The notes under the pieces: generated by a model | Database searches by the model: none | Seen by the model: only the letters and a program-made list of their open reading frames with translations | What the model was told of the DNA's origin: nothing | Part shown: piece after piece, positions 2,363 to 12,553 of the stretch | Position numbering within the stretch: the stretch's first letter is position 1 | How the letters are laid out: each line of letters opens with the position of its first letter | Source: Planctomycetota bacterium | Lineage (GTDB): Bacteria > Planctomycetota > Phycisphaerae > Phycisphaerales > SM1A02 | Assembly: GCA_009926625.1 (NCBI GenBank) | Contig: RFON01000029.1 | Span: 1-35,994 of the forward strand | Direction of reading: 5' to 3' | Length of the DNA: 35,994 nucleotides | Translations under genes and position numbers: made by a program

Positions 2363-3493
2363 TCAGTCGGCGCCGACCGCGGCAAAGCCGACCCGCAGCA
2401 GCCGTTCATCCGCGCCGCGCACGATCTCCGCCCCGCCCCCGCTCCGCGGCAGGACGAGGGTCCAAGCGCCGCCACGTCGCTTCTTGTCCGACCCGGCAAC
2501 CCGAATCAGCAGCTCCAACCCAAGCGGCGACGGCAGCTGAGCGGGCAGCCCGAGCGCCTCCACCAGTTGGCGCACAGAGTCCGCCTCCTTCGGCGACATC
2601 AGCCCCGCCTCGACCGATGCCGCAGCAGCGGCAACCAGCCCAACCGCCACCGCCTCGCCATGCAGCATCTCATCGGGCACAAGCCCTTCAATCGCATGCC
2701 CGAATGTGTGGCCGAGGTTCAGAAGCATCCGCCGCCCATCCTCGCGTGGATCGGACTCCACGATGTCCAACTTCACCTGCGCAGAACGCGCCACCAAATC
2801 CACCAGACGCGACTGCGCATCGGCATCCGCAGCCCGCGCATCCGCTGCCGCGCCGGCAAGACACTCGGCCAGCGACCTGTCCGCGAGCAACGCGTGCTTC
2901 AAGCACTCTGCCAGACCAGCGCGAAGTTCACGAATGGGAAGCGTCGACAAGAGCGACACATCACTCGAAACGAGGCGAGGCGGCCAGAACGCGCCAGACA
3001 TGTTCTTCGCCAGGCGCCCGTCAGCGAGCCGCACATTGATCCCCGTCTTGCCGCCGAGCGCAGCGTCGACCATCCCGAGCAGCGTCGTTGGAATCGCCGC
3101 CCACGCAATGCCGCGGAGCAAGCTCGCCGCCACGAACCCGCCGAGATCGGTCAACACTCCCCCACCAACGGCAATCAGCAACGCACCACGATCCACGCCC
3201 ATGGCGATCGCATCGCGCTGCAGCCGCAACCACTCCTCGCCGACCTTGGCGCGCTCCGACGCTTCGACCTGCAGGCGGTGAACGATCAACCGTGGTTGCG
3301 CGGCGGCGAGTGCCTGAACGAGCGGTTCCACTGCTGAACGCGCGACCGCGCCATCAAAGATGATCAGCACGCTCGAGGGCGCACTGCCGCCGCACAGCGA
3401 CAAGCAGCGTGTTGCAGTGACCGCGGTCAGCCGACTGCCGATGATCACTGGCGCGGTGTTCACACCGCAGACCTGCGTCAACTCCCGCATCAT
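2363..3493 (-). CDS. aroB: 3-dehydroquinate synthase
   Basis: Second step of the shikimate pathway: NAD- and metal-dependent cyclisation of DAHP to 3-dehydroquinate in the cytosol. Family motifs are clear: GGGVLTDLGGFVAA (NAD binding), AIPTTLLGMVDAALGGKTGIN, the ECLKHALL helix and GHTFGHAIE, which carries metal-binding histidines. From the ATG at 3493 the product is 376 residues, close to the usual 350-370. An ATG further upstream (3649) would add a Cys/Arg-rich tail that does not look like protein. The chosen ATG overlaps the upstream stop (ATGA), supporting an operon with the membrane protein before it. The N-terminal substrate domain is rather divergent, but the catalytic core is intact. 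Confidence 0.95.
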   Translation of the reverse strand: MMRELTQVCGVNTAPVIIGSRLTAVTATRCLSLCGGSAPSSVLIIFDGAVARSAVEPLVQALAAAQPRLIVHRLQVEASERAKVGEEWLRLQRDAIAMGVDRGALLIAVGGGVLTDLGGFVAASLLRGIAWAAIPTTLLGMVDAALGGKTGINVRLADGRLAKNMSGAFWPPRLVSSDVSLLSTLPIRELRAGLAECLKHALLADRSLAECLAGAAADARAADADAQSRLVDLVARSAQVKLDIVESDPREDGRRMLLNLGHTFGHAIEGLVPDEMLHGEAVAVGLVAAAAASVEAGLMSPKEADSVRQLVEALGLPAQLPSPLGLELLIRVAGSDKKRRGGAWTLVLPRSGGGAEIVRGADERLLRVGFAAVGAD

Positions 3494-4140
3494 GCGCTGC
3501 CTCCCCCCGAGACGCCCGCTGTTGCGCCGCGCGCGCGCGCATGGGCGGCAGCCGCATGAATCGCACTGACGCCGCCGCCCCGACGAACGAGACGCCGCAG
3601 CACGAACCAAGCCACAATCAGCGCAAGCACCGCACCACCCGACACCCAAGGCCAGAGTGCTCCAGCGCCCAGACCTGCACTCCCCCGCGCCGCAACCGCC
3701 GGTCGACCGTCGGCGCTCACCACAACACGGCCGATCACCGCTGGATACTCGCGCATTTCACCGCGCCGATCAGTCATCCGCAGTGGTCCAAGCACGCGGC
3801 CGACGACGCGGACGCGTTCGCCGGCGTTGACCTTGGGCGCATCGATCACATAAGCGGCAACGGGAACACCAGTCGCGCCGCGAACGAACCACTCCTCGCC
3901 ACCTTCGTGCAGCGTTCCGAGGGGCGCGCGCTGCTCGAGTCGGCCTTCCACGCAGACCCACGCTTCGCGCGGCGGGTTCGACCAGTCAGGCGCAGCGACT
4001 ACGGGCAGTCGTCCCACCGCTTCCACCGTGAATGATCCCGCACTTGTCCCCGCCGACACATCGCTCCACAACGACTCGAAGCGGTCGCTCGGCCAGTCGA
4101 GGTTCGCGCCCGTTTGCTCAGTGATCCTGCATCGAGTCAT
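3490..4140 (-). CDS. Membrane-anchored hypothetical protein, C-terminal TM segment
   Basis: About 216 residues from the ATG at 4140 (an alternative ATG lies at 4176). The central part contains alternating beta-type segments such as WVCVEGRLEQR and GERVRVVGRVLG, like an OB-fold or small beta-barrel. One hydrophobic span follows near the C-terminus (ALWPWVSGGAVLALIVAWFV) and then a short Arg-rich tail, which suggests a protein with its main domain outside the cytoplasm and its tail inside. The arrangement resembles GIDE-type or NfeD-like membrane proteins, but I cannot make a firm assignment. It sits between the secreted beta-helix gene (67 bp upstream) and aroB, which it overlaps by 4 bp. Function unknown. 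Confidence 0.75.
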   Translation of the reverse strand: MTRCRITEQTGANLDWPSDRFESLWSDVSAGTSAGSFTVEAVGRLPVVAAPDWSNPPREAWVCVEGRLEQRAPLGTLHEGGEEWFVRGATGVPVAAYVIDAPKVNAGERVRVVGRVLGPLRMTDRRGEMREYPAVIGRVVVSADGRPAVAARGSAGLGAGALWPWVSGGAVLALIVAWFVLRRLVRRGGGVSAIHAAAAHARARGATAGVSGGGSA

Positions 4141-4207
4141 GGGCGTGCCCGCCCCCGATGCTAGTGGCGCACGCACGAACGAAGTCCCTTGCCGCGACCG
4201 ACTGCGC

Positions 4208-5674
4208 TCAGGGGCATGGACCCCAAGCGCTCAGCGCTTCCGTGAGGTCGGCACCATCGGTGATCCCGTCGCCGTTCACATCGGCGTCCGCCGTGGCCCA
4301 TGCCGAAAGGATCGATGCCAAGTCGCTGCCACCAACCGCGCCGTCGTTGTCGAGATCAGCAGGGCACGCTGGTGGCGGAGGCGGCTGCACCTCAAAGGCG
4401 CCCATGTCCACCACGGGCGCTCCCCCGACACCCGAATCCGTCACCGCAACGATGTCGACGCGGCGGGCATTGCCGTCATGGTCCACGGTCACGCCCGCAG
4501 GGATCAGCGAATTGCTGCCCGCATCGATGCCAGCCGAGTTCGCTTGCAAGCGGACATTGGACGCAGCCTGATCCACGAATGTCGGCGCCGCCGAGATGTT
4601 GCCCGTTCCCGCGATGCCACCCTGCACGAGCGAGTACGACACGGTGTTCGTACCGCCAGCTTCGGTCACCTGATTGTTCGTGGTCGCTCCACTGTTGCCG
4701 GTGTTCGCCCAGAAGATGCAGTTGGCCAGCGTGCTCGTGCCGCTCGTGTTGTAGAAACCGCCGCCCGAGGTTGCGGCCGCAGAGTTGCCGACGAATGTGC
4801 TGTTGCGCACCGTCACCACCGAACTCGTGCCTGCCCAGACCGCGCCGCCCGAGTTGGAAGTCGTCGCGCGATTGAGCACGAACACGCAGTTGATGATCGT
4901 GCTCTGCGAACTGCCGTACGACTCGATCGCGCCCGCGCGCGACGCTTGATTGTTGCGGAACAAGCAGCGCTCCCAGCGCACAGTCGTTCCATTTGTATCG
5001 AACGCACCGCCGTACGAACCACCGATGTTGTCGGTGAACTCGCAGTCCACAAAGCTGCCGTTCGCACCAAAGATGTACCCCGCGCCTCCACCAAAGGTGC
5101 AGCGGTTCCCGATGAAACGGCACTGCCGCACCGTGGGGTTGCCGTTCGTCAGCACGAGGATGCCGCCACCCTTGTCGTAGTTCGACCCAGTCGCCCCATT
5201 GGCATATCCGCCGCGGATCGTGAACCCATCCAGCACCGCGGAAGTCGCCACGCTGCTGCCGACCACCACGTGATACGAGTTGTCCGCCAAGTTGGTCGTC
5301 GTGCCGTTGTCGTTCCCCAACAGATCGCCTGTCAGCACCGTGACATTCCCGCTCACGCTTCGCTGCGACACCTCGGTTTCCATTCCAGCGAATCCGCCGT
5401 ACACGGCAACACCTGTCTTGAGCGTGATGAACACCGTCCGCGAAGTGCCCGCGGTCGGCTTGTATGTCCCCGCGGCGACCCAGATCTCATCGCCCGACAC
5501 CGATGCGGCAAGCGCGCGCGACACGCCGTCAACGGTGCGGTATGCGTTGTCCCAGCTTGTGCCGTTGTCAGCTCCGCCAGCGAGTGCCACATTGACATAG
5601 CGCACCGCTGCTTCCGCGCGACCCGCCAAGACTGCAACCAAAGCGGCCGCAACACAAGCAACTGCACTTCGCAT
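4208..5674 (-). CDS. Secreted right-handed beta-helix protein with dockerin-like C-terminus
   Basis: A 488-residue exported protein. The first ~22 residues form a Sec signal peptide ending near AEA. A mature region rich in Gly, Asn, Ser and Thr carries repeated short coils (VRQCRFIGNRC, VDCEFTDN, WERCLFRNNQA, INCVFVLNRA, VRNSTFVGNSA). This spacing is typical of right-handed parallel beta-helix (polymorphic outer-membrane/pectate-lyase-like) proteins. The last ~50 residues hold two Ca-binding dockerin-like repeats, DLDNDGAVGGSDL and DVNGDGITDGADL, each followed by an LSAW segment, and end in GPCP. This tail is common in exported planctomycete proteins and is thought to act in sorting or anchoring. 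No catalytic polysaccharide-lyase residues can be assigned, so the substrate is unknown. The gene is divergent from the methyltransferase cassette. Confidence 0.9.
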   Translation of the reverse strand: MRSAVACVAAALVAVLAGRAEAAVRYVNVALAGGADNGTSWDNAYRTVDGVSRALAASVSGDEIWVAAGTYKPTAGTSRTVFITLKTGVAVYGGFAGMETEVSQRSVSGNVTVLTGDLLGNDNGTTTNLADNSYHVVVGSSVATSAVLDGFTIRGGYANGATGSNYDKGGGILVLTNGNPTVRQCRFIGNRCTFGGGAGYIFGANGSFVDCEFTDNIGGSYGGAFDTNGTTVRWERCLFRNNQASRAGAIESYGSSQSTIINCVFVLNRATTSNSGGAVWAGTSSVVTVRNSTFVGNSAAATSGGGFYNTSGTSTLANCIFWANTGNSGATTNNQVTEAGGTNTVSYSLVQGGIAGTGNISAAPTFVDQAASNVRLQANSAGIDAGSNSLIPAGVTVDHDGNARRVDIVAVTDSGVGGAPVVDMGAFEVQPPPPPACPADLDNDGAVGGSDLASILSAWATADADVNGDGITDGADLTEALSAWGPCP

Positions 5675-5778
5675 AGGTCACGCAACCTACCCCAGCCCCA
5701 TTGATCTGCAAGCGCGAGGCGAGGCATTTTGAGCCCAAACGAGTCAAAACGCATCCGTTCCCACGCCAATTGGGCTGC

Positions 5779-5875
5779 GGCATAGCCGTGCTGGGGCTCA
5801 GACAGTCTCTCGCCTGCTCCACGCGGCTGGCGCCGCGCGTTCGCAGGCTCAACAACTCGCCCAGCACAGGCATGC
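5779..5875. repeat. Palindromic MITE-like repeat, copy 1 (inverted relative to copy 2)
   Basis: This ~97-bp element reappears in reverse orientation at 8412-8507. The 5790-5866 core matches the reverse complement of 8421-8495 almost perfectly; the main difference is a 2-bp change near 5806. The unit has imperfect terminal inverted repeats (GGCAT...TGCTGGG at one end, CCCAGCA...ATGCC at the other). A central hairpin (CGCGGC-TGGC-GCCGCG) is nested inside GCCTGC/GCAGGC arms, so the whole unit could fold into one long imperfect hairpin. It lies in the otherwise gene-free 5675-5946 interval upstream of the methyltransferase. It could be a REP/MITE-type mobile repeat or a bidirectional terminator. 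Confidence 0.85.
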
Positions 5876-5946
5876 CGCAGCCCACCCGCGGGGCGCGTTT
5901 CGGCTCGCGCGGTGCTCGGCAGACCATGGCGAGTACAGTGCAGGCC

Positions 5947-7173
5947 ATGTCCAAGAGGGCATCACGCAAGGGGCTCGGGCGGACCGGCAATTCACCGGGC
6001 GCACCAACGCAAGTGAAAACCCAGCCATTGAATCGAAGCTTGAGCGCTGCGAAAGCTGCCAAGCAGGACGAGTTCTACACCCAGTACATCGACATCCAGA
6101 AAGAGGTCGAGGCCTACCTCGAGTTCGACCCCAACACCTTCCGCGGCAAGGTCGTCTACTGCAACTGCGATGACCCGTTCGAGAGCAACTTCTTCAAGTA
6201 CTTCGCCGCCAACTTCAACAAACTCGGCCTCACGCGGCTCATCTGTACCAGCTACGACGGCTCCCCCATCGCCGGGCAGATGACGCTCTTCCCCGAGCAC
6301 ACCGAAGGCAACAGCACGCGCTCAAAGCCAAAGGCAATCGCCGTCATCGTCGACCACGTGAAGGACGAGAACAACGACGGCACGGCCGACATCGAGGACG
6401 TAAAGCTCTTCCTCAAGAAAAACAAGGCCAACCGAATCGCCCTCAAGGGCAACGACCAATACCCCGGCGGCGACTTCCGAAGCCCCGAGTGCATTGCCCT
6501 CCTAGAACAAGCCGACATCGTCGTCACCAATCCGCCGTTCTCGTTGTTCCGGGAGTACATCGCGCAGCTCGTGGAGCACGGGAAGAAGTTTCTGATCATC
6601 GGCAGCAAGAACGCGATCACCTACAAGGAGATCTTCCCGCTCATCAGAGGTGACAGGATGTGGGTTGGAGCAGGTTTCGCCCAAGGGAATGCGTACTTCA
6701 GCATTCCAGCGGATCGGGCGCGTGAGTTCGCCCACGGTGTCTATGACAAGCAGACTGGACTGGTCAAGTTCCGCAACGTCGGGTGGTTCACGAATCTCGA
6801 CCACGGGCGCCGCCACGAAAAGTTGAAGTGCATGACCATGGCGGACAACTTGAGGTTCAGTAAGCACAAGGAGATCAAGGGCAAGCCCGCCTACGATCGG
6901 TACGACAACTACGACGCGATTGAAGTGCCGTTCACCGACGCGATTCCCAGCGACTACGACGGTGTCATGGGCGTCCCGATCACCTTTCTCGACAAGTACA
7001 ACCCTGCCCAGTTCGAGATCATGAGCGCGAATGACATCCGGAGGGATTCCGGTGTCCCCTATAAGGAACATGGGCTAATCAAGGACAAAGACAGCGCGAT
7101 CAAGGGGAAGCCGACCTACGTCCGCATCGCCATCCGCCACCGTCGCCCCGCGAAAGGAGGGAAGAAGAAGTGA
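5947..7173 (+). CDS. EcoRI-family adenine-specific DNA methyltransferase
   Basis: About 408 residues from the ATG at 5947; in-frame ATGs at 5926 and 5701 are possible, but the latter would run through the upstream repeat. Family features are a Lys-rich N-terminus leading into [20 protein letters not shown], the segment [21 protein letters not shown], and the catalytic amino-methyltransferase motif NPPF at residues 195-198. This layout matches the M.EcoRI-type (EcoRI_methylase) family, which transfers a methyl group from S-adenosylmethionine to adenine N6. The usual partner would be a cognate restriction enzyme; here the next gene, overlapping by 4 bp, is a DUF262-HNH nuclease. Lys, Asn and Tyr are frequent compared with the Arg-rich neighbours, consistent with horizontal acquisition. 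The recognition sequence cannot be read from the protein. Confidence 0.9.
7155..7160 (+). promoter_or_regulatory. Strong ribosome binding site for the DUF262-HNH gene
   Basis: AGGAGG, a full Shine-Dalgarno match, lies inside the end of the methyltransferase gene, nine bases before the GTG at 7170. It decides the GTG start and shows that the nuclease has its own strong translation signal as well as the GTGA overlap. Most other starts in this window lack such a site. Confidence 0.8.
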
Positions 7174-8336
7174 AAACCACTCTCAAGACCGACATCACCG
7201 TCGCCAAGATCTGCGACGGTTTCGTCTACAACCAACTGGAAGGCAAGGGGCTGTTCGGTCTCCGCGGGAAGCTCACGATCCAGCCGGAGTACCAGCGCAA
7301 CTACATCTACGCCGACGGCGGCGGGAAGAAGGAGCAGGCGGTCATCGAATCGCTCCTCAAGGGCTATCCGCTTGGGGTGATCTACTTCAACTCGGTCGCT
7401 GGCGACAGGTTCGAGGTGCTCGACGGCCAGCAGCGCATCACCAGCATCGGGCGGTTCGTCACCGACAAGTTCGCGATCATGGAAAACGGCAACCCGAAGA
7501 TGTTCAGCACCATGCCCGCTGACCAGCAGAAGAAGATCCGCGAGTCGAAGCTGCTCATCTACGAGTGCGAAGGGACGGAGACTGAGATCAAGGCGTGGTT
7601 CAAGACGGTCAACATAGCCGGCGTGCCGCTGAACGACCAGGAACTGCTCAATGCCGTCTACTCCGGCTCGTTCGTCACGCTTGCCAAGGCCGAGTTCAGC
7701 AACAGCCAGAACGCGAACATCCAGAAGTGGAGTGCGTACGTGCGCGGCAGCGCTAACCGCCAAGACTTTCTGGAACGGGCGCTTGACTGGGTGAGCAAGG
7801 GCGACATCGGTACCTACATGAGCGACCACCGCACCGACGAGAACATCAAAACACTCAAGGCCCACTTCAACACCGTGATCGATTGGGTGTCCACCGTGTT
7901 CACGGATGTTCTCCCCGAGATGCGCGGCCTAGATTGGGGCAGGCTGTACGAGGCATATCGCGGCGAGAGTTACGACCCGAGGAAGATGTCCGCCGCAGTC
8001 CAGAAACTCGCGGCTGACCACTGCGTCACGGATCGCAAGGGAATCTTCGAGTACCTCCTTGGTCGCTCAAAGGAAAAGCAGCTGCTGTCCGTGCGAGTGT
8101 TCGACGATAGAACCAAGAAGGTCTCATACAACAAGCAGACGAAGGAGGCGAAGACCAAGGGCAAGTCCAACTGCCCACTTTGCGCGATTGGCGACAACGC
8201 CAACAAGGACCGAATCTACGACCTCGACGAGATGGACGCCGACCACGTCGCGGCATGGAGCAAGGGCGGCAATTCCTCAGCTCAGAACTGCCAATTGCTC
8301 TGCACGACCCACAATCGAGCCAAAGGAAATCGATAG
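7170..8336 (+). CDS. DUF262-HNH endonuclease (GmrSD/DndB-like ParB-fold plus HNH)
   Basis: 388 residues, GTG start overlapping the methyltransferase stop. The N-terminal half is a DUF262 (ParB/Srx-like) domain with the hallmarks [23 protein letters not shown] and [13 protein letters not shown]. In GmrSD/Brx-type enzymes this fold binds and hydrolyses nucleotides and controls cleavage. The C-terminus is a complete HNH nuclease: CPLC at 335-338, D358-H359, N373, and C378 with H381 near the end, forming a beta-beta-alpha metal site with a zinc pair. Coupling to an EcoRI-like methyltransferase suggests a restriction enzyme that spares DNA carrying the partner's methyl mark, or an NTP-regulated antiphage nuclease. 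Which one cannot be told from sequence. Composition is Lys-rich like the methyltransferase, so both genes probably arrived together. Confidence 0.9.
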
Positions 8337-8346
8337 TAAGGACGCA

Positions 8347-8363
8347 CCGCGCGAGAGGCGCGG
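8347..8363 (+). terminator. Short GC hairpin after the nuclease gene (weak)
   Basis: CCGCGC-GAGAG-GCGCGG forms a perfect 6-bp stem 11 bases after the nuclease stop codon. There is no following T-tract, so intrinsic termination is only possible. The downstream palindromic repeat at 8412 is an alternative terminator. Confidence 0.3.
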
Positions 8364-8411
8364 GCGGAGCAGCTGAACCAAGGTGTTGTGCGTTCGGCCG
8401 CGCGCGCCCGA

Positions 8412-8507
8412 GGCATCCCCTGCTGGGCGAGTTGTTGAGCCTGCGAACGCGCGGCGCCAGCCGCGTGGAGCAGGCGAAACTGTCTGAGCCCCAGCAGGGT
8501 GCATGCC
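8412..8507. repeat. Palindromic MITE-like repeat, copy 2 (inverted)
   Basis: Reverse-orientation partner of 5779-5875. Together the copies bracket the methyltransferase and DUF262-HNH genes symmetrically. This copy shows the terminal arms best: GGCAT-CCCCTGCTGGG at the left and CCCAGCAGGGTGCATGCC at the right, with the GCCTGC/GCAGGC and CGCGGC/GCCGCG stems inside. The rest of the 8337-8567 interval is very G+C-rich with three repeats of TAGAGGCGCG-like sequence; I see no gene in it. Confidence 0.85.
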
Positions 8508-8553
8508 GAGGGCGCGCGTGGTAGAGGCGCGGCGCGGGCGCGCACTAGAGGCG

Positions 8554-8565
8554 CGCTTCGAAGCG
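8554..8565. repeat. Perfect 12-bp palindrome next to the tRNA-Glu 3' end
   Basis: CGCTTCGAAGCG is self-complementary and begins two bases beyond the 3' end of tRNA-Glu(TTC). It may be a processing or termination signal for the tRNA transcript, or chance in G+C-rich DNA. Confidence 0.4.
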
Positions 8566-8567
8566 AA

Positions 8568-8642
8568 TGACCCCAATGGGATTTGAACCCATGTGTCCTC
8601 CTTGAAAGGGAGGTGTCCTGGACCAGGCTAGACGATGGGGCC
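8568..8642 (-). tRNA. tRNA-Glu (anticodon TTC)
   Basis: A 75-nt cloverleaf can be drawn. The acceptor arm is GGCCCCA paired with TGGGGTC plus discriminator A. The D-arm follows ATCGTCTAG. The anticodon arm is CCTCC-CTTTCAA-GGAGG with anticodon TTC, and the T-arm is ATGGG-TTCAAAT-CCCAT. CCA is not encoded. It lies downstream of tRNA-Glu(CTC) on the same strand and probably shares its transcript. Confidence 0.95.
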
Positions 8643-8653
8643 GAGACTGGAGA

Positions 8654-8703
8654 CCTCGCACCTTGCGCAGTATTCGTTTGAAACTGAGTCTGTCGGTGCG
8701 AGG
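8654..8703. repeat. Inverted repeat in the spacer between the two tRNA-Glu genes
   Basis: CCTCGCACC at 8654-8662 and GGTGCGAGG at 8695-8703 are perfect 9-base inverted arms separated by 32 bases, filling most of the 95-bp tRNA spacer. In the transcript they would form a long stem between the two tRNAs, perhaps a processing substrate. Confidence 0.55.
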
Positions 8704-8737
8704 CGTTCCTGTGGCAGTTGTTGGCTGCCGAGTCGAA

Positions 8738-8811
8738 TGACCCCAAGGGGATTTGAACCCCTGTTCCATCCGTGAGAGGGATGTGTCCTAGCCGGGCTAG
8801 ACGATGAGGCC
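8738..8811 (-). tRNA. tRNA-Glu (anticodon CTC)
   Basis: A 74-nt tRNA: acceptor GGCCTCA with TGGGGTC (one G-T type pair) and discriminator A, anticodon arm CATCC-CTCTCAC-GGATG giving anticodon CTC, T-arm AGGGG-TTCAAAT-CCCCT, no encoded CCA. With its neighbour it supplies both Glu isoacceptors. An ORF start at 8804 on the plus strand falls inside this gene and was rejected as the nadD start. Confidence 0.95.
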
Positions 8812-8822
8812 AACGGGCAAAG

Positions 8823-8850
8823 AGTATAGCGTTGCGAAAATCGAAGGCAA
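8823..8850 (-). promoter_or_regulatory. Sigma-70-type promoter of the tRNA-Glu pair
   Basis: On the minus strand, TTGCCT (-35, 8845-8850) and TATACT (-10, 8823-8828) are separated by 16 bp. Transcription would begin around 8816, a few bases before the 5' end of tRNA-Glu(CTC) at 8811. The placement fits a stable-RNA promoter. It lies just before the start of the divergent plus-strand gene. Confidence 0.65.
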
Positions 8851-8851
8851 G

Positions 8852-10264
8852 ATGATCGGTATCACGGATCGGTCCATGACGACGGCGACGGTGCTCTGCC
8901 CCACGGCATTCGAGGCATCGCGCATTCGTGCGGCGCTTGGCGGGCTCGGCTGCGCGATGGATGTGCGGTGCATTGGCGTTGGTGCGCATGCGGCGAGCCG
9001 ATGGGCGGCGCGCGAGTCTGCGCGCGGTGCGGTGTTGCCTGCGCGCGGGGCTGTCGTGATTCTCGCTGGGCTCGCGGGCGGGCTGCGGGCGCCGTTTGTG
9101 CGCGGATCGATGTGGTGCGCGTCGAAGGTCATGGCGAGCGACGGGCGCGTGTTTGTTCCGCCGCTTGCGGCGGCTGCTTCGGGCGGGGCTGGTCGTGCGT
9201 GCGTTGTTTCGGTGGAACGCGTGTGCGGCAGCCGTGCGGAGAAGTCGGCGCTGCACGCGAACTCAGGTGGTGATCTCGTGGATGTGGAGTCGGGTGGATT
9301 CTGCGAGGTCGCAGCTGCGTTCGGCTGGCGCTTTGGCGTGGTGCGCGCGGTGAGTGATGGGATCGACGATGACTTGCCGTCATGGATGTCGAGCCTCGTT
9401 TCGGTGGACGGATCGCTTGCGGTGCCTGCGTTGGTGCGTGCGGTGGCAACTGCGCCGCTGCGAACCGTGGCACTCGCGCGCTGGGGAGCGATGTGTTCGC
9501 GAGCGCTTGCGCGCGCCGGCGAAGTGATCGCACAGGTGGCTGCTGCAGCGACGATTCGGCGCACGCTTGTCTTCGGCGGCACATTCGATCCGCCGCATTG
9601 GATGCATGTTCGCATGGCGGTCGATGCGGCGCGGATGCTCGGTTGCCCGCGAATCGTCGTGATCCCCGCGGGGCGCGCGCCGCTGCGCGATGCGGTCGAT
9701 GGTGCCGGCCGCGACGATCGGTTGGCAATGGCGCGACTTGCGTTTTCGCAGGTCGCGGGCGCGGAGGTGGATGCGGTTGAACTGGATCGGGAGGGCGAGT
9801 CGTTCACGGTGGACACGCTGTCGTTCCTGGCGGCGCGCGATGGATTGACGCGCGCGGATCTCGTGCTGCTGATCGGCGCAGACCAGGCGCTGCAGTTCGA
9901 TCGCTGGCGTTCGTGGCGGCGCATCGCGGATGAGTTGGCGCAGGTGGCGGTCGTGCCGCGTCCGCCGTGGGATACGGCGTCGCTCGCGCGGGCGCTCGCG
10001 GAGAAGTTCGCTGCGCTCGGATGCGACGGGCAGGCATGGGCTCGTGCCGTGCTGCCGATGCCCGCGGTGCCGATGGCCGCGACCGAAGTTCGTGCTCGGT
10101 GGCGCGGGCTGGGCGATGGCGTTCAAGCGCCCGATGCAACACGCGACTTGATCGATCCCGCGGTGGCGCGTTTCATCCGTGAGCGCGGGCTTTACCGCGA
10201 CGCGGACTCCCCCGCCGCGCCTACGATGGCGAACGATGCCCGCCGCACGAAAGCCCACGACTGA
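8852..10264 (+). CDS. nadD: Nucleosidase-like domain fused to nicotinate-nucleotide adenylyltransferase
   Basis: About 470 residues from the ATG at 8852 (alternative 8876). The C-terminal part (about 235-458) is NadD, which adenylates nicotinate mononucleotide in NAD synthesis. It has the nucleotidyltransferase motif GGTFDPPH at 242-249, then LVLLIGADQ and MAATEVRARW, the latter corresponding to the ISSTxxR region. The N-terminal part (about 10-225) resembles the nucleoside-phosphorylase/MTA-SAH-nucleosidase fold: D144-V-E146 stands where the purine nucleosidases have the ribose-binding Glu, and RAVSD (165-169) matches their RAxSD with the catalytic Asp. It looks most like the HpnG-type phosphorylases. 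I know of no standard NadD with this extension, so the fusion is unusual. The end overlaps rimO by 29 bp in another frame. Confidence 0.88.
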   Translation: MIGITDRSMTTATVLCPTAFEASRIRAALGGLGCAMDVRCIGVGAHAASRWAARESARGAVLPARGAVVILAGLAGGLRAPFVRGSMWCASKVMASDGRVFVPPLAAAASGGAGRACVVSVERVCGSRAEKSALHANSGGDLVDVESGGFCEVAAAFGWRFGVVRAVSDGIDDDLPSWMSSLVSVDGSLAVPALVRAVATAPLRTVALARWGAMCSRALARAGEVIAQVAAAATIRRTLVFGGTFDPPHWMHVRMAVDAARMLGCPRIVVIPAGRAPLRDAVDGAGRDDRLAMARLAFSQVAGAEVDAVELDREGESFTVDTLSFLAARDGLTRADLVLLIGADQALQFDRWRSWRRIADELAQVAVVPRPPWDTASLARALAEKFAALGCDGQAWARAVLPMPAVPMAATEVRARWRGLGDGVQAPDATRDLIDPAVARFIRERGLYRDADSPAAPTMANDARRTKAHD

Positions 10265-11804
10265 TGCCGTCGAACGCGTTGCGTTCGTGAGCCTCGGCTG
10301 CCCGAAGAATCTTGTCGACAGCGAGAAGATGCTCGGATTGCTCGCGGCGGACGGCTTGCGATTGGTGAACGAGGATCAGTCACCCGATGCGCTCGTGGTG
10401 AACACCTGCGGCTTCCTCGAAGCGAGCAAGGATGAGTCGCTTGGCGTGATCCGTGAGGCGATCGAGCGCAAGCACCGAGGCGAGTTGAAGCGCGTGGTGG
10501 TGGCGGGCTGTTTGGTGCAGCGCCACCGCGCGAAGATGCTCGAGTGGGCGCCAGGAATCGATGCGCTCATCGGCGTGTTCGACCGCGATCATGTGGTGGA
10601 CGCCGTGCGAGGCGCGCGAGCCGAGCGCGCGGGGCTCGGCGATGCGACCGAGCGCCCTGGCTACTGGATCTCGTCGAACGCGCTGCTCGCTGCGGCGGAG
10701 CGCGGGCGCGAGACGGTCGGGCTCACCGTGCACGGGAAAGACGGTCTGGGGATCGGCTACTGGGAGGGGGACGAGGGACGATTCCGCCTCACGCCTCGCC
10801 ACTGGGCATACCTGCGCGTGAGCGAGGGATGCAACCAGCGCTGCTCGTTCTGCACGATCCCTTCGATCCGCGGCAAGATGCGGTCGAAGTCCGCCGATGC
10901 CGTTGCAGCCGAGGCACGCGGACTGATGCGCGACGGCGCGTTCGAGTTGAACCTGATCGGTCAGGACACGACGAGCTGGGGTATGGACATCGGCGACTCG
11001 TCGGGGCTGGTCGGCCTGTTGGAGCGGCTCGACGGCGTGGTGCAGGAGCACGGCGGCGGCTGGCTGCGACTGATGTACGCGTACCCGTCGAACTTCACGA
11101 ACGAGATGATGGATGCGATCGCGCGGCTCTCTGGTGTGGTGAAGTACATCGACATGCCGCTGCAGCACGCAACCGACCGCATGCTTGAGCGCATGCGTCG
11201 TCATGTCACCGCCGCGCAGCAAGAACGCGTGGTCGAGGAGTTGCGTGAACGCATTCCAGGCATGGCGATCCGCACGACCTTCATCACGGGGCACCCCGGC
11301 GAGACCGAGGAAGATCACGAACGCCTCTGCGCGTTCATCGAGCGCGCGCAGTTCGACGCGCTTGGCGTCTTCCGCTACTCGCCAGAGGATGGGACGCCAT
11401 CGGGCACGATGCACGATGATGCATCGCTCCGCGTTGACCCAGAGGTTGCCGCGCGCCGCGAGGCGGAGATCATGGAATTGCAGCAGTCGATCGCGTTCGA
11501 GAATGCCCGATTCGTCGCGGACCAACGGTCTGCGTTCGATGTGCTGATCGATGGCGAGTCGTCGGCGCGCGTGACGGGGCGTTCCACCGCGGGTGTCACG
11601 CGCGGCAAACTGCACCTGCATGTGGGGCGCGCGTATCACCAGGCGCCGCAGATCGACAGCGTCACGCATGTGGTGAGTCGCACACCGCTGACCCCCGGCG
11701 AATTGGTGCGATGCACAATCGTGGATGCCGACGGTTACGATTTGATCGCACAACCCACGAGCGATCTCGATCCGTCGATCCAGCTTCCCGTGCTCCGATC
11801 ATGA
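10236..11804 (+). CDS. rimO: Ribosomal protein S12 methylthiotransferase RimO
   Basis: A 522-residue radical-SAM methylthiotransferase that modifies an Asp of ribosomal protein S12. The N-terminal UPF0004 domain carries the cluster cysteines in SLGCPKN, VNTCGF and VAGCLVQ. The radical-SAM motif CNQRCSFC lies at residues 199-206, followed by SIRGKMRS. A C-terminal TRAM domain (about 440-510) ends the protein. RimO is preferred over MiaB because of the SLGCPKN form, the IPSIRGK context and ITGHPGETEEDH. It is somewhat longer than usual RimO (~440) because of an insertion before the radical-SAM motif (about 130-185). The ATG at 10236 was chosen since the upstream alternative at 10179 lies deep inside nadD. 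Confidence 0.93.
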   Translation: MPAARKPTTDAVERVAFVSLGCPKNLVDSEKMLGLLAADGLRLVNEDQSPDALVVNTCGFLEASKDESLGVIREAIERKHRGELKRVVVAGCLVQRHRAKMLEWAPGIDALIGVFDRDHVVDAVRGARAERAGLGDATERPGYWISSNALLAAAERGRETVGLTVHGKDGLGIGYWEGDEGRFRLTPRHWAYLRVSEGCNQRCSFCTIPSIRGKMRSKSADAVAAEARGLMRDGAFELNLIGQDTTSWGMDIGDSSGLVGLLERLDGVVQEHGGGWLRLMYAYPSNFTNEMMDAIARLSGVVKYIDMPLQHATDRMLERMRRHVTAAQQERVVEELRERIPGMAIRTTFITGHPGETEEDHERLCAFIERAQFDALGVFRYSPEDGTPSGTMHDDASLRVDPEVAARREAEIMELQQSIAFENARFVADQRSAFDVLIDGESSARVTGRSTAGVTRGKLHLHVGRAYHQAPQIDSVTHVVSRTPLTPGELVRCTIVDADGYDLIAQPTSDLDPSIQLPVLRS

Positions 11805-12553
11805 AACGACCCGCCCCCACTGTCTGCTGCGCGCTCGCGCTGGTTGTGACCGCGCTGTCCAGCCGCGCACTGTTCGCGCAGCAGTCGGCGCCGCCGATCA
11901 TTCCCAAGGGTGCGAACCTCGACATCGATCCGACCGAGCAGATCGACATGTCGGGGTGGTGGTCGAATGGCGCGGTGGTGCTTTCCGTGAAGCGCGATGG
12001 TTCGTTCCTGATGTGGGATCAGCCCAACCGCTACCGCGAGCCTTCGGCGCGCGGGCGGTGGCACCGACAGAACTATCGCACCTTCTGGATCGAACCGTAC
12101 TTCGACCCCAAGACGCCTGGGAACGCACCCCCTCGCACGCGCTGCGCGCTTCGGCGCACGAATGGCGTGCTGCTTGTGGATGTGGGTGCTGCGTCGGGAC
12201 TGGCGCATTCGACGACGCCGCCGCTCGCCCCTGAAGATGCGCATGTCGGCCGCTGGAACGGTCCCGGCGGCACACTTGACCTGCGCGCCGATGGATCGTT
12301 TTCTCTCACGGCGGCGCCGCTGCCAAACTCTTCGGCCCCGCCTTCCGTGCAGGGCGGTCGATGGACCTTCGATGGAAAACTGATCCAACTCTTCCGCGGC
12401 GAGGAGCGCGATGCGCCACTCCGCTGCGTTCCAGTGCAGCGACCGGGCGCCGTGTCTTCAGACGGCAGCATGACGAACGAGATCGTTGCCCTTGCGACGC
12501 CCATCGGCGAACTGCGTCGACTGCCGACGAACGGCAAGGACGCCGTGAAGTGA
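11801..12553 (+). CDS. Exported hypothetical protein
   Basis: 250 residues, beginning with a Sec signal peptide (MKRPAP, hydrophobic core, cleavage probably after LFA, residue ~25). The start overlaps the rimO stop as ATGA. The mature protein contains two similar beta-rich blocks: DMSGWWSNGAVVLSVKRDGSF (about 50-70) and HVGRWNGPGGTLDLRADGSF (about 145-165). Each has a G-R/W-W start and a D-G-S-F turn followed later by GRW, which suggests a duplicated lipocalin/META-like strand motif. No enzyme residues are recognisable. It ends 6 bp before the convergent OmpH-like gene. Confidence 0.85.
   Translation: MKRPAPTVCCALALVVTALSSRALFAQQSAPPIIPKGANLDIDPTEQIDMSGWWSNGAVVLSVKRDGSFLMWDQPNRYREPSARGRWHRQNYRTFWIEPYFDPKTPGNAPPRTRCALRRTNGVLLVDVGAASGLAHSTTPPLAPEDAHVGRWNGPGGTLDLRADGSFSLTAAPLPNSSAPPSVQGGRWTFDGKLIQLFRGEERDAPLRCVPVQRPGAVSSDGSMTNEIVALATPIGELRRLPTNGKDAVK

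Follow-up and report, generated by a model that had tools for sequence, protein, structure and literature searches.

A 35,994-nt stretch of planctomycete DNA (the whole stretch analysed, called the window) contains two overlapping genes lying between facing inverted repeats, beside a pair of tRNA-Glu genes. This raises the question of whether the repeats are the ends of a mobile unit that carries the two genes, or structures of another kind between which the genes have come to lie. The features of the locus are as follows.

5766..5893, + strand: hairpin element A (left), R side towards the cargo; match to covariance model R1 of 123.8 bits, A being in its training set
5911..5914, + strand: GGTG, left cargo junction, placed by comparison with the empty pair L012
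5947..7173, + strand: EcoRI-type adenine-specific DNA methyltransferase, 408 aa (Pfam PF13651 and PADLOC MTase_II)
7170..8336, + strand: DUF262/GmrSD_N-HNH nuclease, 388 aa (Pfam PF03235 and PF01844; PADLOC REase_II)
8382..8385, + strand: GGTG, right cargo junction, beginning the spacer common to the empty pair; homology with the genome G010 restarts at 8382
8394..8520, − strand: hairpin element B (right), R side towards the cargo; match to model R1 of 112.9 bits, B also being in its training set
8568..8642, − strand: tRNA-Glu (ttc)
8737..8812, − strand: tRNA-Glu (ctc)

The bracketed gene pair

The bracket is based upon two pairs of inverted arms found in a repeat search of the window. Those at 5810–5866 and 8421–8477 (57 nt) are 100% identical, and those at 5786–5809 and 8476–8499 (24 nt) are 92% identical; with a seed of 14, no repeat of 40 nt or more besides the 57-nt pair turned up in the 36-kb window. 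The sequence-only reading had described two overlapping genes bracketed by inverted repeats, and the arms and the overlap are both confirmed. The nuclease gene starts with GTG inside the end of the methyltransferase gene, so that the two share 4 nt (7170–7173), and both have family matches. Other parts of that description also hold. Both genes are Lys-rich (K39/R25 and K35/R21, against K3–12/R20–54 in four neighbours), the two tRNA-Glu genes lie beside the unit, and neither bracketed gene matches a transposase or an integrase in Pfam. Hairpin B begins ∼50 nt past the 3′ end of the tRNA-Glu (ttc) gene, on the same strand. The GC content of the cargo is 58.5%, compared with 64.9% for the window.

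In profile scans run on a 5998–7173 version of the gene, the methyltransferase matches Pfam PF13651 with E = 1.2e-125, together with PADLOC MTase_II; an alternative ATG at 5926 would give a protein of 415 aa. The nuclease matches PF03235 (E = 7.4e-20), PF01844 (E = 3.4e-6) and PADLOC REase_II (E = 4.7e-82, covering 368 of its 388 aa). The pair comprises a PF13651 methyltransferase and a neighbouring gene with the two endonuclease domains, as in known restriction–modification (R–M) families. Sequence searches of the PDB gave no match for either protein. The same pair is adjacent on two plasmids of distant bacteria (Lactiplantibacillus and Dietzia), and the genome G027, from another genus, has a methyltransferase 81% identical to that of the window, with a matching gene pair; neither hairpin model matched G027. 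In all of these the domains, order and adjacency are those of a Type II R–M module made of an EcoRI-family methyltransferase and a DUF262/HNH nuclease. The window differs from these known pairs in its planctomycete host and in the placing of the module between hairpin repeats. We infer that the two enzymes form a working R–M system.

A family of long structured repeats

Hairpins A and B belong to a lineage-specific family of long structured repeats and are not the ends of this one unit. The sequence-only reading had proposed a search of related genomes for the repeat, and had named its occurrence throughout the genome at gene ends as speaking against a mobile unit; this is largely what is seen. 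They are scattered as single copies or direct tandems, with 17 places in the host's own draft genome (all genomes are drafts, and eight of the 17 copies are ≤410 nt from a contig end). Up to 52 matches occur in the congener G011 (E up to 0.1, so that some may be due to chance), and matches are confined to three genera of one family. No hairpin was seen in viral contigs scanned with the core pattern or in phages scanned with one copy. At gathering score the only matches of the window in Rfam 15 are the two tRNAs, and a permissive search with one further hairpin copy gave none below E = 0.01, the best (0.01 and 0.026) both being far under gathering score. Literature searches, covering listings, found nothing on the element, a result that does not exclude earlier publication.

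The hairpins are ∼130–160 nt in length. The RNA folds of A and B are better than those of shuffled sequences, with z-scores of −4.3 and −5.1 respectively, and none of 200 shuffles was as good. The stems covary, 12 of 32 pairs having changed on both sides, a number that none of 500 shuffles reached; in neither of the two covariation tests do further pair types exceed the shuffles (475/500 and 284/500 as high). The internal loop is nearly invariant, a constancy that is partly built in since the copies for most counts were gathered by a pattern requiring the loop. Four sites were dropped in which the first half of the loop had no second half near enough for the pattern, which also failed to pick up L016 and L059:3572 in the host genome. 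Minimum free energy is lower for the bottom strand, giving it the more stable fold, in 112 of 115 copies. There is also a strand bias in wobble pairs, which involves few independent positions in copies that are themselves non-independent, and two groups of outer stems lack it or show the opposite.

Many of the hairpins follow closely behind a gene. The nearest gene on the L side has its stop codon towards the hairpin in 62 of 85 clusters. The proportion is 34 of 38 in G011 and G002 taken together, and the rule is weak in the host's own clade (16/27) and in genus g18 (9/17); the simple gene caller used is doubtful in GC-rich DNA, and some exceptions are real. Hairpin A is one of these, its L side pointing at where the next gene starts and not at a stop. 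In the best-read genomes the hairpins lie ∼40–95 nt (medians) behind stop codons. Several stand behind one and the same gene across species, and some follow apparent housekeeping genes. They are not ordinary intrinsic terminators because they have no T-run; at least five consecutive T occur in one of 112 copies on the top strand, and in three on the bottom strand.

REP units are short. Dispersed extragenic palindromes with insertion sequences beside them are described for REP/BIME in passages of PMC1525189, and the hairpins resemble these in dispersal and in having insertion sequences alongside. They differ in length, in the near-invariant internal loop with covarying stems, and in the Y1 (RAYT-type) transposase, for which PF01797 matched none of the 19 genus genomes; as a control, the same search gave matches in 5 of 14. 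An identity as REP/REPIN elements with RAYT was rejected on this ground. A diversity-generating (DGR) target repeat was likewise rejected, as a DGR-type reverse transcriptase was not found alongside the element: RVT_1 matches occur in 6 of the 19 genomes and not in the hairpin-bearing G010, G003 and G006, and that of the host genome is closest to retron types.

The same site in related genomes

In the sister species G010 the flanks of the site are 83% (3001–5907) and 82% (8382–12160) identical to those of the window, and the cargo is without similarity. It comprises a C5 methyltransferase (PF00145, E = 2e-58) and an unnamed 223-aa open reading frame, a candidate R–M pair by its methyltransferase only. 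A 29-bp direct repeat flanks this cargo, which could reflect site-specific insertion or a deleted copy of B. A third species may hold a SUMF1-type gene at the tRNA-Glu site. In 10 of the 19 genus genomes ∼57–196 nt separate the left gene from tRNA-Glu, and the sites free of both hairpin and cargo are too diverged to align in search of target-site duplications. An empty hairpin pair in the A(+)/B(−) arrangement, its members ∼50 bp apart, is present elsewhere in the host genome (C22:5433–5689). The GGTG sequences at the two cargo junctions may form a 4-bp repeat, a weak one that is possibly due to chance. Empty orthologous sites of single hairpins were also sought; no truly empty one came out, and in the one clean case an internal deletion had removed the hairpin in G010.

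The right-hand orthologous hairpin of G010 has a core different from that of the window, and the 57-nt identity in the window is limited to the hairpin cores. The two cores show a gene-conversion-like exchange. Inversion of the cassette, which the sequence-only reading had considered, is not supported: a crossover in the cores would have shuffled the outer arms, and in both hairpins these still match. That reading had also taken the segment for a mobile cargo unit, and this survives in part. The cargo is accessory and its place by the tRNA-Glu genes is variable: searches of the 18 other (draft) genomes of the genus did not find the methyltransferase, and the cargo of G010 is unrelated. Presence of the cassette in all relatives, the other observation which that reading had named as refuting, is not what is seen. 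Copy number and placement behind stop codons do not support the view that the hairpins are ends of one unit. The site is like a system in which genes turn over at a fixed place without a recognisable mobile element, and differs from it in that two structured repeats, their cores recombined, enclose the cargo.

How the cargo may be exchanged

On balance, the locus is probably a turnover spot flanked by hairpins that were already there, now holding a horizontally spread R–M module. The putative module (m6A methyltransferase and DUF262-HNH nuclease) would sit in the short spacer between facing hairpins that predate at least one cargo, B lying behind the tRNA-Glu unit and A, opposite to it, preceding the next gene. 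Species differ in the cargo they keep, some having none, and the exchange would take place when incoming DNA recombines homologously with the shared flanks and hairpins. In transcripts the hairpins may act as 3′-end structures or insulators, and insertion between two facing hairpins would be tolerated because of this action. A role at mRNA 3′ ends does not explain the more stable fold of the bottom strand.

The tRNA-Glu neighbourhood might instead be a general insertion spot that the hairpins flank by chance, and there are other inserts at this place in genomes where no hairpin was seen (1.9 kb in G015; 1.1 and 2.1 kb in G004). Such a coincidence is unlikely. The cargos of the host genome (G000) and of G010 are both inside the hairpin spacer, an empty pair exists elsewhere, and other hairpins have accessory genes grouped at their R side. 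Of 22 copies, 16 have matches to the listed kinds of cargo on the R side, as against 5 of 32 on the L side, a comparison based on a biased query set, the proteins having been chosen after sighting at R sides, with orthologues and both hairpins of one cassette counted separately.

The possibility that hairpins and cargo constitute a composite mobile unit, with the hairpins recognized by a transposase acting in trans, appears improbable. It would account for the inverted pair occurring both with cargo and empty, for at least two unrelated cargos and for the possible GGTG repeat; in addition one hairpin (L017) has an rve-type transposase fragment at its R side, and IS-like ends or open reading frames were seen by eye beside two more (L011 and L018). 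The dispersal of single and tandem hairpins, often behind genes and several behind the same gene across species, argues against such a unit, as do the orthologous hairpins around other cargo in G010 and the lack of a Y1 transposase in the 19 genomes. The cargo with its hairpins was not seen at a second site. The transposase expected of a terminal-inverted-repeat transposon was not found: neither bracketed gene is one, and Y1, the family sought genome-wide, gave no match.

Still harder to sustain is an integron-like process in which the hairpin would be a folded single-strand attC-like site, accessory genes being exchanged at its R side. attC sites sit at gene 3′ ends, a placement common to the hairpins. 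Passages of PMC2727003 and PMC6393395 describe attC as hairpins with conserved unpaired parts and a favoured bottom strand; the hairpins have a conserved unpaired loop within covarying stems, and may share the strand preference. The excess of cargo on the R side and direct hairpin–gene–hairpin units in L079 and L080 also fit. However, RYYYAAC and GTTRRRY, which we take to be the attC R-box motif, were both within 70 nt of the core in none of 113 copies (0.1 expected from shuffles), so attC R boxes were rejected. Only two PF00589 matches at E = 1e-8 occur in the host genome, the only one typed. XerD and XerC are their best-scoring types, with scores just short of the respective cut-offs; they reach 113–114 bits, compared with the 265-bit cut-off of the integron-integrase model TIGR02249, and an integron integrase was rejected on this basis. 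The placing of hairpins behind apparent housekeeping genes, and cargo genes that seem by eye to have their own promoters, also speak against an integron-like process. An integrase-free cassette system, in which the hairpins would be folded single-strand recombination sites dispersed over the chromosome at gene ends and served by XerC/XerD or an unrecognized enzyme, with genes for defence and surface proteins inserted and exchanged on the R side, is a long shot.

For the host and its relatives the finding means that accessory genes turn over beside hairpins. With unrelated methyltransferase modules at one site in sister species, how defence genes move without an integrase becomes directly testable. 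A multi-copy hairpin family lacking an Rfam match, and matched in three genera of one family, is a clear target for finding new RNA- or DNA-binding activity.

Two facing hairpins and the genes between them

The window contains one long inverted repeat, with 57 nt identical and a further 24 nt at 92%. Its two copies are covariance-model matches:

within 5766-5893, + strand: hairpin A (left copy)
within 8394-8520, - strand: hairpin B (right copy)

Folded as RNA, A and B have z scores of -4.3 and -5.1 respectively, and none of 200 shuffles is equally stable in either case. The repeats bracket two overlapping genes, as the sequence-only reading had described; both have family matches, and they overlap by 4 nt. 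The first encodes an EcoRI-type adenine methyltransferase (PF13651, E 1.2e-125), and the second a protein with GmrSD_N/DUF262 (7.4e-20) and HNH (3.4e-6) domains. This nuclease matches the PADLOC type II restriction enzyme model across 368 of 388 residues, and contains the motif DGQQR, given as a feature of the GmrS domain in PMC4619093.

The methyltransferase has no match in the 18 other genomes of the genus (drafts, 70-97% complete). Among 61 genomes searched, relatives of near full length are present in G027, from another genus (81%), and in G041 (71%), with short partial matches in G059 and G043 and elsewhere in G027 at a second place. The methyltransferase relative is followed directly by a nuclease gene in G027, and by a 181-aa ORF in G041. 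Relatives also occur in 77 of 72,556 plasmid records. Three of these were examined; a DUF262 gene follows the methyltransferase in those of Lactiplantibacillus and Dietzia, while the Paracoccus record has too few annotated genes to judge the neighbour. A Pseudarthrobacter plasmid record, listed under the nuclease match, names both genes. The GC content of the cargo is 58.5%, compared with 64.9% for the window. Given the relatives in G027, G041 and plasmids, the lack of a methyltransferase match in the other genomes of the genus and the lower GC, the cargo looks like a travelling restriction-modification (R-M) module that is not bound to the hairpins. The gene pair appears to be an ordinary mobile R-M module.

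A structured repeat family

The repeat is matched at 17 places in the draft genome containing the window (G000; E below 1e-6), the weakest match being 44 nt and several being truncated by contig ends. For eight of the 17 a contig end lies within 410 nt, so further copies may be hidden at assembly breaks. The close subtype is found in four of 19 genomes of the genus (G000, G003, G006 and G010) in the search of 61 genomes, with a single 21-nt match in G024. Among named records the exact core pattern occurs in 19 stretches, from MAGs with the isolate names K_DeepCast, M_DeepCast, K_Offshore and F1-60. Under stricter filters a covariance model built from 23 copies matches 14 of 151 genomes of the family, including diverged copies elsewhere in the genus and in a second genus, g18; at E up to 0.1 it matches 14 of 17 genomes of the genus, with 52 matches in the congener G011. 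A second such model, trained on 23 diverse copies, has matches in 21 of 301 genomes from the order, and these all belong to three genera of one family. No description of the structured repeat family was found in Rfam or the literature searched.

In the 23 close copies two-sided changes occur in 12 of 32 pairs, and 98.8% of cells are paired; none of 500 shuffles reaches either value. In the 23 diverse copies 65 cells have changed on both sides, compared with 20 in shuffles (0/500), and 11 pairs have a two-sided change, compared with eight (6/500). By contrast, further pair types show no excess over shuffles in either alignment (475 and 284 of 500 as high for close and diverse copies respectively). 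The loop, CTCAGACAG..CTCG / AACTCGC, is nearly unchanged among copies, a constancy that is partly built in because the diverse copies were collected with models and patterns containing the loop. Complementary arms could also arise from quasi-palindrome correction by template switching; this alone would be insufficient to hold the loop constant.

In G011 and G002 (L199-L232) the hairpins are frequently direct tandem pairs, ~180-630 nt apart, behind one gene. Hairpins are also present on contigs labelled Betaproteobacteria or Verrucomicrobia (L072, L079, L080 and L082, VGHO01; L076, VHDM01), which are probably mis-binned. One g18 genome (G169) has a hairpin, L158, whose arms resemble type B of the window's genus, without the apical part; the other copies listed for that genome are of a different type, which suggests transfer or contamination.

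Position, strand and neighbours of the hairpins

Loop orientation is defined from L to R, with the hairpin base placed 40 nt outside the core. The stop of the nearest L-side gene points towards the hairpin in 17 of 19 G011 clusters, 17 of 19 G002 clusters and all three G008 clusters, with median gaps from stop to hairpin base of 43, 94 and 38 nt; in g18 it does so in 9 of 17 clusters, and in the window's own clade in 16 of 27. The R-side stop is likewise more often facing (13/16 in G011, 13/18 in G002), which places many copies between convergent genes. In several cases copies lie behind the same gene across different species, as judged by comparison of C-terminal sequences, and hairpin B is 3′ of tRNA-Glu on the same strand in G000 and in the sister species G010. 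A T-run follows the stem in only one of 112 copies. The hairpin would most likely act at transcript ends.

A role at mRNA 3′ ends would predict the top strand and does not account for the strand preference. Folding energy is lower on the bottom strand for 112 of 115 copies. Counts of top-strand A.C versus G.T mismatches, in which copies within one genome are not independent, favour the bottom strand in both outer and inner stems of the remaining genus members (109:23 and 64:5 respectively), and in the inner stems of g18 (28:8) and the own clade (28:0). Outer stems are neutral in the own clade (15:15) and reversed in g18 (1:6); the counts for four other copies are 3:1 and 3:0.

Among the 37 own-clade copies that were examined, R-side sequence of 380 nt or more is available for 22 and L-side sequence of that length for 32. 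SUMF1-type, R-M or IS-like queries, a set picked after these genes had been observed, match the R side of 16 of the 22; five of 32 match on the L side, all SUMF1. Among the IS-like pieces on the R side, one is a transposase fragment of rve type (PF00665), and by eye IS ends and a short ORF lie beside two other hairpins. Such pieces recall REP elements, reported as insertion targets in PMC1525189. Ends of an insertion-sequence-like element were seen by eye at L018 (about 5570-5615), L011 (3505) and L315. At L018 two such ends meet head to head, separated by 3-4 bp, as would be seen at an IS circle junction or where two copies are neighbours. In L017 (contig C34 of G000) a further AAA_14/DUF4143 ATPase gene (4162-5505) lies beyond the transposase fragment on the hairpin R side. 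Directly oriented hairpins flank SUMF1-type genes in L079 (20-3134) and L080 (235-1713), which gives the appearance of a repeated unit of gene plus hairpin.

Proposed exchange at the tRNA-Glu site

Synteny in the genus covers both sides of the site: the left neighbour (488 aa) on one, and on the other the tRNA-Glu pair and a gene that we take to be rimO. Over 19 genomes, five of which (G013, G009, G003, G006 and G007) are unreadable at the site, the left gene and tRNA-Glu are about 57-196 nt apart in 10, and an insert separates them in four (G000, G010, G015 and G004). G010 retains orthologous hairpins with flanks 82-83% identical, and its cargo, a C5 methyltransferase and a 223-aa ORF with no match in Pfam, PADLOC or NCBIfam, has no similarity to that of the window. 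In G003 the contig ends ~160 nt beyond hairpin B, and the bases past it are similar to the leader that precedes a SUMF1-type gene (PF03781) of G006. An empty pair, with A and B facing ~50 bp apart, is present in G000 itself (C22:5433-5689). In G015 an AAA_14/DUF4143 ATPase insert lies near the same tRNA-Glu genes (L147 1874-3097), in G004 the two tRNAs are separated by an amidohydrolase gene (L144 3978-5486), and G008 has ~2.3 kb extra past the tRNAs (L143).

The cargo junctions of the two genomes differ. GGTG is common to both junctions in the window. In G010, spacer sequence is directly repeated over 29 bp on either side of the cargo, which we infer to be the remnant of a deleted B copy beside A rather than a target duplication. 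At the site of C38 of G000, G010 has lost the hairpin through an internal deletion. The cores of A and B in the window are identical across 57 nt; G010 has this core once, in A, and its B core is clearly different. Each window hairpin retains its own outer arms, which match one another. The pattern is consistent with gene conversion in the core, not with a crossover, and so argues against a fixed inversion; the suggestion that repeat recombination could flip the cassette is not supported.

Two PF00589 matches are present in G000 at E 1e-8; their best NCBIfam models are XerD and XerC, with scores just below the curated cut-offs of those models. Y1 transposase is found in none of 19 genomes, RVT_1 in six, its presence not tracking that of the hairpin, and attC R boxes in none of 113 hairpin copies. 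A retron-like reverse transcriptase gene lies in L326 (contig C67 of G000; 620-1672, - strand), adjoining a partial ORF (1-627, - strand) that matches a DNA methylase family weakly and below the cut-off (PF01555, E 1.3e-4).

The simplest mechanism is that cargo would be exchanged by homologous recombination in the flanks and hairpins. The proposed exchange resembles the hotspots without mobile elements described in PMC5635113. The R-M module occupies an exchange site made by a pair of hairpins from a structured repeat family.
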